Assembly (NCBI GenBank): GCA_964017185.1
Contig: OZ024884.1
Location: 13,493,548-13,557,547 of the forward strand
DNA length: 64,000 bases
Direction of reading: 5' to 3'
Source of the DNA: Rugalucina vietnamica
Lineage: Eukaryota; Mollusca; Bivalvia; Lucinida; Lucinidae
The notes under the pieces: model-generated
What the model saw: only the letters and a program-made list of their open reading frames with translations
Told to the model about the DNA's origin: nothing
Databases searched by the model: none
Shown: in pieces, positions 37,901-40,900 of the stretch
Layout: every line of letters starts with the position of its first letter
Position numbering within the stretch: position 1 is the stretch's first letter
Translations under genes and position numbers: made by a program

Positions 37901-40900
37901 GGGCAGGGACCTGTAAATGGGGCGTTAGCCAGCATCCAAAGACGGGATTTTCCGCTGTTTAGGGACCAAAATCGCTTTACAGTGAAATCCGCAATTTGGC
38001 CATTGTATGGCTAAACAGCAGCTGATTAAATCACACAATAGAGCAAAATATTCAAGAATGGTTACACTAGTCTACATGTATAATACGGCAAAGACGGTTG
38101 ATAGATACGCATTTGTGACAATCTTAAATTTGCCGCAGTAGATCTGCCCACACTTTGGGCCAATCGCTTGCAACGTTTCAATTAGAGAGATCTGAAGATA
38201 AGCATACTTGAAAATTTCGAATTTTCATTTCTAGAACTGTTCAACAATTTTGAAACTAGTTCATTTTGGATGACAAAACAAAGAGTCCTTATGTTGTCTG
38301 CAGAAAGTCATGAAGTTCTAAATTGATAACACGCGTCCCATGCGTAGTTTGTCTAAAATAGCACTTTCTGTTCATAAACCGGAAGTTCAATACAAACCGA
38401 CCGCCGGATTTAAAACTATTTCTTTATCCCAGTAAGGAGGGCATTATAATCAAAACCTTTGCCAAGGTTCAAGCAAAACAAATCACAGAAGTGTTATCTG
38501 TTTTGGCCCCCATTTCGTGCAGTTTTATTTTGGGCGCCCGGCTTACATAGTGCCTCTATCCTCACAAGCTCCCAATGCCTCGTATTTAGACATGTCTTAT
38601 TTCAGTGTCACATAATACGATTTAAACTGATTATCAAAAGAGTAACACTTGATGAGTAATGTGGATTTCTGTTGTAGAAACTGCAATCTGAATATGCTTA
38701 ACTAAATGCCAACGATATGATAATTCTATCCGGATCGGTAATGGAAATGTAAAAGTAAGGAATGATCAGGAATAGGTGTAATCAGGTTCAAAGTCCTATT
38801 GAAATTAAAAACTCAGGACGTCAACAGGTAAAGTGCAAATACTTTGACCGTGCCAGTTTGTCTCTGACATAGATCTGCATTTGTTGATAGGACTGCTTCA
38901 AATAAGTATGTTTTCAATAATACCATTCTATGATGGTAAACAAAATTTGACCACACGCTTCACGGGGCACTGAAGAAAATGTGTCATCAGGAAAACATGT
39001 CCGTGCAATGTATACCCCCTTGAACCCCACTTTTATATAGTAAAACTGGGGTTTGCAGGGGTATACCTATTTTTCTTATTTTTGCTCAAAACATAGATTG
39101 TGGGTACTCGTTAGAACCGCCTCGGCGAGGCGGTTCTAACTAGTACCCACAATCTATGTTTTGAGCAAAAATATTAAAAATATCGATTTTTTTCCAATGA
39201 AATTTTCAATTTTTACAACTGATAAAAATCTCTGTATATTGCACGGGCAAGTTTTCGTAATGAGGTCAACCGGCACGGTAAAAGTATTTGCACAATACGG
39301 GTTCAAAGAAAACACATAACAAGCCGAGCGAGCAGTTGTTTCCCTAAAGTAGCCACTCAGCTACCTTAATAACAACGTAAAAATTGGCAAGAGTCTGACA
39401 AGTAATCGGGGCTACTGTTTCTGATACCAGGAAGTAAGAAGCCATATTTAAGAGTAAAACTTAAGACTTTAGTGTCCATTATTTATGAGTGTGAAAAGGG
39501 AAAATCAGGAGACAAAGACCCCGAAAGTAGATGTAAAACATTATGAAAACTTGCCCATGCAAAATACAATTTTTTCATCTGTAAAAAAATTGAAAATTTC
39601 GTTAAAAATGGTGTTTAAGGGGGTACACATCTCACGGACATGTTTTCATGATGAACACGACGGCCCTCGTTCAATGAAATAATCTTGTGGGACAGTCCTA
39701 AAGCACGGAACCAAAAACAGTCAAACAATACCACAAAATAACCCCAAAAATTGATGTAAACATTATGAAAACTTGCCCATTCATCTGTAAGAAATTGAAA
39801 ATTTCGTTAAAAATGGTGTTTAAGGGGGTATACATCTCACAGACATGTTTTCATGATGAACACGACGGCCCTCGTTCAACGAAATAATCTTGTGGGAAAG
39901 TTCTAAAGCACGGAACCAAACAAACAGTCAAACAATACCATAAAATGTTTCTATGTAATCAACATGTCGAGTGATAATAAAACAATAATTTTCCTAAAAT
40001 ATTTCTAATGTGTCTGTCACTCACAAATAAAAATAAATCTCCGCTACAGCAATGAAACCTTGCAATAAAAGAAAATGGAATAGAGTATATTAGGAGGCAA
40101 GGCATCCAAATAATTGTTTGTTTTCGGCGGCAAGCTCCGATACAAAACAGGAATTCAAAATCAAATGACAATTACAACTTTGGACGTAAATATACATGTA
40201 TACATGTATATAACGAAATATTTTGTTAAAAGAGGCACTGTCATTCGCAAACTGACAGATATTCACCTCGCTGCACTGAGACATTCTTCAAGCACGCGTG
40301 CCTTAATATAGAGCATCACCAACAACAAGCTGAGTCGAGATAATCAGCGGCGTCGGCGTCGGACCTTTCAACCACAATAGAAAGAAACCTAAACAGTGCT
40401 CATCTGAGAGAGTCTATAGATGTTACATGTTTTGAAACATGAACGCAATATACAAAAGCAAAATAACTACTATAGTAGTCAGGTGATATTTACAGGTAAT
40501 TTTTGTCAGGTGAATGTCTGATATACTAAACTGTCTTATCGGTAGTTTATCAGAAACATTGCGTGTCTTATCATAATTCAGGCTTATCTAAATGTTAATG
40601 AAATAGAAAATTCTGATACTTTGGCATTTTCATACCCAAAAGACCAGCTTGTATTACTCATATGCATAATCGTATAACAGTCGTTGATAAGCAGGTTAAT
40701 AGTACTTTTCCGTCAAAACAAATAACTGAAGTCGAATCTTTGGGTCAGTAAGTACATAAAAATAATCTATAGATGTGTACGAGTATATAATGTTTTAAGC
40801 AAATTATTGTTCATGATTTCTGAGTAGGGCGTCGATTTAAGGGAAACTCACAAGCTTGTTTTCTTCAAAACGAAGAACAATTTTCACCGATTACGTGCGA

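Follow-up and report, generated by a model that had tools for sequence, protein, structure and literature searches.

The length of the target-site duplication (TSD) is a main classifier of DNA transposons, and families generally have a characteristic length (PMC8969392). The ATon elements of Aedes aegypti are, like the MITE analyzed here, abundant elements with terminal inverted repeats (TIRs), no coding capacity and no known autonomous partner, and it is ambiguous whether their AT target is duplicated or split; however, ATons insert specifically at AT, whereas the present MITE lacks a fixed target and its TSDs measure 0, 1 or 2 bp (PMC3422177). The PHIS transposons are akin to it in including the duplication-free Spy and the 2-bp ISL2EU elements with AT-rich targets, but each PHIS group has a fixed duplication and target (AAATTT and none for Spy, AT for ISL2EU), and TIRs usually begin with GG in ISL2EU and with A or G in PIF/Harbinger, whereas those of the present MITE begin with CAT (PMC4482050). 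A precedent for several duplication lengths in one group, and even in one family, is found in the IS481EU elements of parabasalids, although their lengths of about 4, 15 and 25 bp and their ends TGT...ACA are unlike those seen here (PMC10045372).

Here, we describe a MITE family found in a 64-kb stretch of Rugalucina vietnamica DNA, referred to as the window, whose TSDs seem to be 0, 1 or 2 bp instead of one length, which is the new point. In the literature searched, nothing matching a 1-bp TSD was found beyond LINE-1, and nothing similar with variable or absent TSDs except ATon among the matches listed; the words of the end and arm sequences matched only through a single 13-letter word, in unrelated subjects. 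Palindromic MITEs of the Angel type in fish differ in host and sequence, and their arms have reportedly been proposed to be homogenized through a hairpin. The Foldback-like Galileo is a family of transposons whose structural variants are based on inverted repeats, and it belongs to the P superfamily, whereas the element described here is 279 bp with two separate internal hairpins. Helitrons and Helentrons have no TIR pair, encode a Rep/helicase protein and insert at AT or TT. They generally leave no duplication, whereas the present MITE has TIRs and 1-2 bp in some copies.

Results

Structure and ends of the element

The full-length focal copy spans 38985-39262 on the plus strand (278 bp, CATCAGGAAAAC...GTTTTCGTAATG), and its ends are those common to the 118 aligned full-length copies. 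The family termini are CATCAGGAAAAC/CATTACGAAAAC, and ends of the form CATCAGG...GTAATG recur across copies with a typical length of about 279 bp. The sequence-only reading had recognized a real repeat and expected its termini to recur in other copies, which was confirmed, but had placed the start at 38988, three bases too far to the right. Its imperfect 30-bp TIRs correspond to 29 nt that pair at 83%, its central hairpin with arms of about 55 bp to 57-nt arms that are 95% complementary and meet at CCGCCTCGGCGAGGCGG, and the hairpin centers do differ between copies, as it had claimed. No coding capacity was seen on considering the 278-bp length and the list of open reading frames, in agreement with that reading. 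The TIRs, precise recurring ends, empty sites, lack of visible coding capacity, high copy number and short length support the assignment as a MITE.

The consensus fold of the 118 full-length copies is a closed TIR stem bearing the 5' hairpin and the central hairpin. In these three structures, 94-95% of cells are paired (94.5% in the TIR stem and 94.0% in the 5' hairpin) vs 34-58% when slid, whereas the AT-rich third hairpin has 71.8% paired cells vs 45-61% when slid; thus, of the three internal hairpins proposed earlier, the 5' and central ones are robust and the third is weak. The inner arms are the least variable part and the AT-rich segment is the most variable. Among 40 copies picked for their likeness to the focal copy, diversity was 0.03-0.07 in the central arms, about 0.075 in the TIRs and 5' hairpin, and 0.21 in the AT-rich segment, and 63 copies at C1 loci, selected on the exact 3' end, differed from the consensus by a mean of 5.3% in the central hairpin, 6.8% in the TIRs and 5' hairpin, and 15.9% in the AT-rich segment. 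Gaps at the hairpin tip occur in 15/118 copies vs 0, 1, 6 and 6 at four further sites in the arms, and are nearly as frequent in the AT-rich segment (11/118).

Copies in the window and in the genome

The family profile identified 22 merged loci comprising 26 segments and 4,554 bp in the 64 kb, close to the about 20 copies counted previously, the window being a small part of a genome-wide family (Table 1). A 31-bp arm motif has 19 matches in the window with up to 3 mismatches, against 0.00 expected. Read by eye, 17 of the 22 loci have lost a terminus, one of the arms or the tip of the hairpin, and 5 are intact. Right-type sequence at the left end is seen in some copies (window 52106-52369, partly at 48094, and L070). 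At 39537-39861, a short MITE insertion and its flanks are present twice, about 205 bp apart.

Table 1. Parts of the focal copy and other copies of the family in the window.
Feature	Position	Strand	Remarks
Left TIR	38985..39012	+	pairs with 39235-39262, 83% over 29 nt
Right TIR	39235..39262	+	partner of left TIR
5' internal hairpin	39010..39066	+	arms 39010-39035 / 39041-39066, 81% complementary
Central hairpin	39068..39182	+	arms 39068-39124 / 39126-39182, 95% complementary
AT-rich segment with weak third hairpin	39185..39230	+	most variable part of the family
Full-length copy in tandem kinase-like exon repeat	44655..44913	+	TT either side
Full-length copy	53606..53884	+	
Full-length copy	61875..62145	+	TA either side
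Full-length copy	57808..58093	-	
Near full-length copy	54458..54738	-	hairpin tip deleted
Copy	49296..49528	-	hairpin tip deleted
Diverged copy	37322..37558	-	most of arms gone
Copy	33645..33885	-	without hairpin right arm
Copy, more palindromic	52106..52369	- (orientation uncertain)	right-type sequence at both ends
Two adjoining copies	47809..48333	+	one split by T-rich run; other with partly right-type left end
Copy	46932..47176	-	central hairpin duplicated
Short copy	39537..39656	-	without central hairpin
Duplicate of the short insertion plus its flank	39758..39861	-	duplicates 39537..39656
Partial copy	110..306	+	
Partial copy	7304..7522	-	
Copy	9951..10138	-	hairpin tip deleted
5' part	24775..24859	+	
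3' part	26592..26763	+	
Fragment	36558..36645	+	
Fragment	58694..58809	+	
3' part	59618..59729	+	

The exon repeat that received an insertion is kinase-like (PF07714, E 2e-11), and an exon resembles the MuSK receptor (E 0.007). Tandem 164-bp repeats surround the kinase-like exon sequence at 43977-44659, and a tandem array with a 352-bp unit occupies 42493-43603, in which a tRNA-like stretch was recognized by eye only.

The 1.09-Gb assembly (47 contigs) contains 10,646 exact matches to the 24-bp 3' end, with C or T allowed at one place, and none to its reversed control. Exact ends were present in 7/59 segments (4/26 in the window, 0/9 in a 50-kb sample and 3/24 in the flanks, the last being biased), so the genome total is roughly of the order of 100,000 segments. 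The sample consisted of 20 stretches of 2.5 kb at round coordinates, and 1,265 of its 50,000 bp (2.5%) belonged to the family, as 9 segments in 5/20 stretches. One exact arm motif searched in viral and prokaryote collections gave no match.

Paired changes in the arms of the central hairpin

For the analysis of the arms, 93 hairpins were found and 81 aligned, the 12 lowest-scoring being omitted, which gave 74 distinct hairpins. A T.T mismatch is present in the central arms of 69/74, and in most the left arm also has an unpaired base, which has disappeared or gained an opposing base in only 3/74; because both irregularities persist, the arms are not kept perfect. Cells changed on both arms numbered 19 vs 5.5 in shuffles, and pairs changed on both arms 8 vs 4.5, a value reached in 9/500 shuffles. 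One pair supplies 10 of the 19 double-changed cells, mostly as G-C to C-G, and the tree puts this change on two internal branches.

Changes were then placed on a tree of 118 copies, and the control (500 replicates) used the same tree and columns but with arm positions re-paired among those of like base-pair type and CpG class. Double changes on one branch that stayed paired numbered 17 vs 5.41 ± 1.39 in the control, and all double changes 26 vs 11.0, neither value being reached in any of 500 controls. Similar results were also observed for non-CpG paired double changes (8 vs 2.32; 0/500), and the excess of paired doubles remained after removal of the three richest copies (8 vs 2.25), indicating that pairing is maintained or repaired to a small extent. 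One-sided arm changes numbered 382 vs 412 in the control. The earlier suggestion that pairing was maintained or repaired thus stands for a minority of changes, and compensatory changes, which it had proposed to count, are fewer than single-arm ones (17 vs 382), so that the suggestion fails by the criterion set with it, but exceed the expectation for independent changes, which is the appropriate null. Single pair-restoring changes showed no excess (16 vs 17.9 in the control); an earlier apparent excess was due to the T.T pair missing from the control and was gone once this was corrected. At the conserved T.T mismatch, 8/9 changes with both letters present restored the pair (T to A), whereas T to A accounts for 49/93 elsewhere in the arms, a bias that is suggestive only, given the small numbers. 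The best single case of arm-templated correction is L088, whose right arm fits its left arm at both irregular places.

The arms could be alike merely through youth, with no correction at all. The preponderance of one-sided changes, the persistent T.T mismatch and the absence of excess in single pair-restoring changes are all consistent with this, but we consider it unlikely, as the paired doubles exceed a control with the same tree and columns and continue to do so without the copies richest in them. Much of the arm complementarity is simple inheritance, and correction or selection acts on arm pairing as a minor force. Because 15/17 paired double changes lie on tip branches, i.e. in single copies, template switching is tentatively favored over selection in unsampled source copies as their source.

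Flank identity and the length of the target-site duplication

Flanks were compared in 118 copies with sufficient flanking sequence and no more than 3 mismatches in either 12-bp end. About 40 of them were picked for likeness to the focal copy and the others for an exact 3' end or a location in the window or flanks; 38 of 60 short C1 stretches qualified, and L001, which lies in the window, and L034, which lies in L026, were excluded. The flanks were identical over 1 bp in 63/118 copies vs 35.8 by shuffling and 34.2 from genomic adjacency (P = 3e-8), and over 2 bp in 25/118 vs 9.6 and 10.2, respectively (P = 2e-5), whereas identity was at chance over 3 bp (3/118 vs 2.9 shuffled and 2.4 from genomic adjacency) and 4 bp (1/118 vs 0.8 expected). 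A 1-bp and a 2-bp match coincide in 14 copies and neither is present in 44/118, some of which may carry mutated duplications. When only the C1 set of 38 copies was considered, the excess was modest over 1 bp (17 vs 11.5, P = 0.035) and strong over 2 bp (10 vs 3.1). Adjacent bases match in 29% and dinucleotides in 8.7% of non-element window DNA; therefore, preference-free 0-bp insertion cannot explain the excess.

A mixture of 0, 1 and 2 bp, fitted to the 118 copies under an assumed 5% change per flank base, gave shares of 0.50, 0.35 and 0.15 (bootstrap 0.35-0.66, 0.24-0.49 and 0.06-0.24), with a 0-bp share of 0.53 or 0.44 when 2% or 8% change was assumed. The lnL gain was 23.1 vs a maximum of 3.1 in 200 shuffles, compared with 14.3 for 0+1 only and 10.1 for 0+2 only; a 1+2 mixture without 0 was worse than no duplication (lnL -12.9). 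The weight for 3 bp was nil and that for 3-5 bp together about 0.02. When offsets and lengths of 2-10 bp were scanned in 39 copies, the top excess was 2 bp exactly at the proposed ends. From the youngest to the oldest third, 27/39, 23/39 and 24/40 copies had a 1- or 2-bp match and 12/39, 16/39 and 16/40 had none, with no clear rise with age; decay with age does not explain the mixed lengths.

Empty sites were sought for the 92 copies whose flanks reach 30 bp or more, and in 17 of these a match from outside the family spanned the insertion site (no more than 5 examined per copy). Nine were judged clean by eye, and eight further spanning alignments were too poor. No extra base was seen at L078, L031, L019 and L124, 1 bp at L040, L071, L076 and L112, and 2 bp at window 44655, where TT lies on either side of the element and 5/5 of the paralogous empty copies compared (6 found) are 2 bp shorter; none of the nine had lost target bases. 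This last insertion, into an exon copy, does fix the ends as had been proposed, at 44655-44913 rather than 44658-44915. The 0-bp sites were read by eye on paralogs that are mostly 65-84% identical, and at L124 the element is flanked by C at either end although no base has been gained. Slippage could give the appearance of a duplication at the +2 site and at three of the four +1 sites, which all sit in short runs of T or A. Of the five paralogs compared for L112, four show +1 and one has no gap, and the paralogs of L040 are repeats within its own locus.

Comparison with known superfamilies

Instead of the fixed, one-superfamily TSD length typical of MITEs, a 0/1/2-bp mixture was found. hAT, piggyBac, P, MULE and other superfamilies have TSDs of 4-10 bp, and no such length was found in the scan of 39 copies or in the 4-bp flank identity of the 118. 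The junctions of the 96 copies with exact CAT..ATG ends (bases on the two sides separated by a slash) were T/T, the commonest, in 25 and A/T in 10, with no fixed TA or AT dinucleotide and no fixed AT or TT target. Tc1/mariner, with a TA duplication (PMC10045372), was rejected on finding TA/TA in 2/96, and PIF/Harbinger, with a 3-bp TWA duplication (PMC4482050), on the chance level of 3-bp identity. ISL2EU was rejected on the absence of AT/AT from the 40 commonest junctions and on the CAT start of the TIR, and Spy on the low A/T count and the 1-2-bp duplications.

An ordinary transposon with a fixed 2-bp TSD (ISL2EU, CMC or Tc1-like), in which the missing duplications reflect later mutation, slippage or misread ends, would account for the 2-bp identity above chance, both in the 118 copies and in the C1 set (10/38), and for the 2 bp seen against all five paralogs compared for the exon insertion. 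It is nevertheless improbable, since 0+2 fits 13 lnL units worse than 0+1+2, matches are about as frequent in the youngest third as in the oldest, four +1 and four 0-bp empty sites were found and the ends show no fixed TA or AT. A single-strand element (HUH/rolling-circle or peel-and-paste), with hairpins as recognition signals and no duplication, would fit the strong hairpins, the prevalence of T/T and the about half of copies without a duplication, but the TIRs at both ends, the extra 1-2 bp at five empty sites and the lack of a fixed AT or TT target make it quite improbable; Helitrons and Helentrons were rejected likewise, the junctions following no rule.

Search for an autonomous partner

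Copies sharing the first 21 bp of the left end were searched for a longer element, as the sequence-only reading had recommended; two patterns gave 42 and 330 matches with odd interiors, and no autonomous partner or longer relative was found among those fetched (28 stretches plus L091). The 42 matches came from the 21-bp left end followed by a non-MITE interior, a weak negative because its nine excluded positions pass about 7% of random interiors. Ten of 12 odd matches fetched proved to have a diverged, deleted or interrupted MITE inside, and L095 (masked after about 255 bp) and L103 had the MITE start only. The looser pattern gave the 330 matches, 16 being fetched from among the 100 matches listed.

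Several candidates were rejected. L091 is a 192-bp deletion variant beside other ORFs, which presumably encode esterase-like, Ulp1-like and PHD-like proteins. L174, with L178, at first resembled the partner, but extension of L174 showed that its interior is an element of about 780 bp nested in a MITE. In both L066 and L058, a MITE is interrupted by a different palindromic repeat.

The nested element in L174 (with L180) has ends like GGGACCAGTGATCGATCA and lies near bp 30 of the MITE; L174 and L178 have about 700 bp of foreign interior in common, and the flanks of L178 differ. In L177, the MITE left end is followed by about 620 bp of unrelated sequence and then a reversed MITE fragment. The palindromic repeat is nested at nearly the same place near the 3' end in L066 (300-1490) and L058 (1836-2260), and has relatives in the window at 2256-2667, 4581-4919, 8132-8541 and 52688-52950.

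Discussion

That the hairpin is kept as a transcribed and processed RNA (microRNA or siRNA precursor), with selection on the RNA maintaining its pairing, would agree with the paired-change excess, the low variability of the inner arms and a 5' hairpin whose folding is much stronger than that of mononucleotide shuffles (mean z -6.1 over the first 60 copies), but is quite improbable given the lack of an Rfam match in the window, the restriction of most paired doubles to single copies and the predominance of one-sided changes.

The family is probably a very high-copy, non-autonomous TIR MITE mobilized by a putative trans-acting transposase with near-blunt strand transfer. Because no transposase or longer relative turned up among the stretches fetched, we can only infer the mode of movement. 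The putative transposase, supplied in trans, would cut at the element ends and join each of them to a target strand, the two joints being almost blunt, with a loosely set stagger of 0-2 nt. The central palindrome would be inherited from source copies that keep it, its arms now and then corrected one from the other and otherwise decaying one at a time; deletions frequently remove the hairpin tip, which would be expected of a hairpin that extrudes.

DNA transposons usually give duplications of one length, and to our knowledge a 0/1/2-bp mix fits no TIR superfamily. A tentative possibility, which we hold with rather low confidence, is that the family represents the non-autonomous branch of a DNA-transposon superfamily not yet described, with a loose 0-2-nt stagger and perhaps a hairpin intermediate that recopies the arms.

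A 0/1/2-bp mix in a family whose copies number of the order of 100,000 would suggest that strand transfer has an uncommon geometry, which could be studied in thousands of naturally occurring insertions. In addition, with one long palindrome present in so many copies, correction between arms and deletion of the hairpin tip can be quantified in the genome of an animal.
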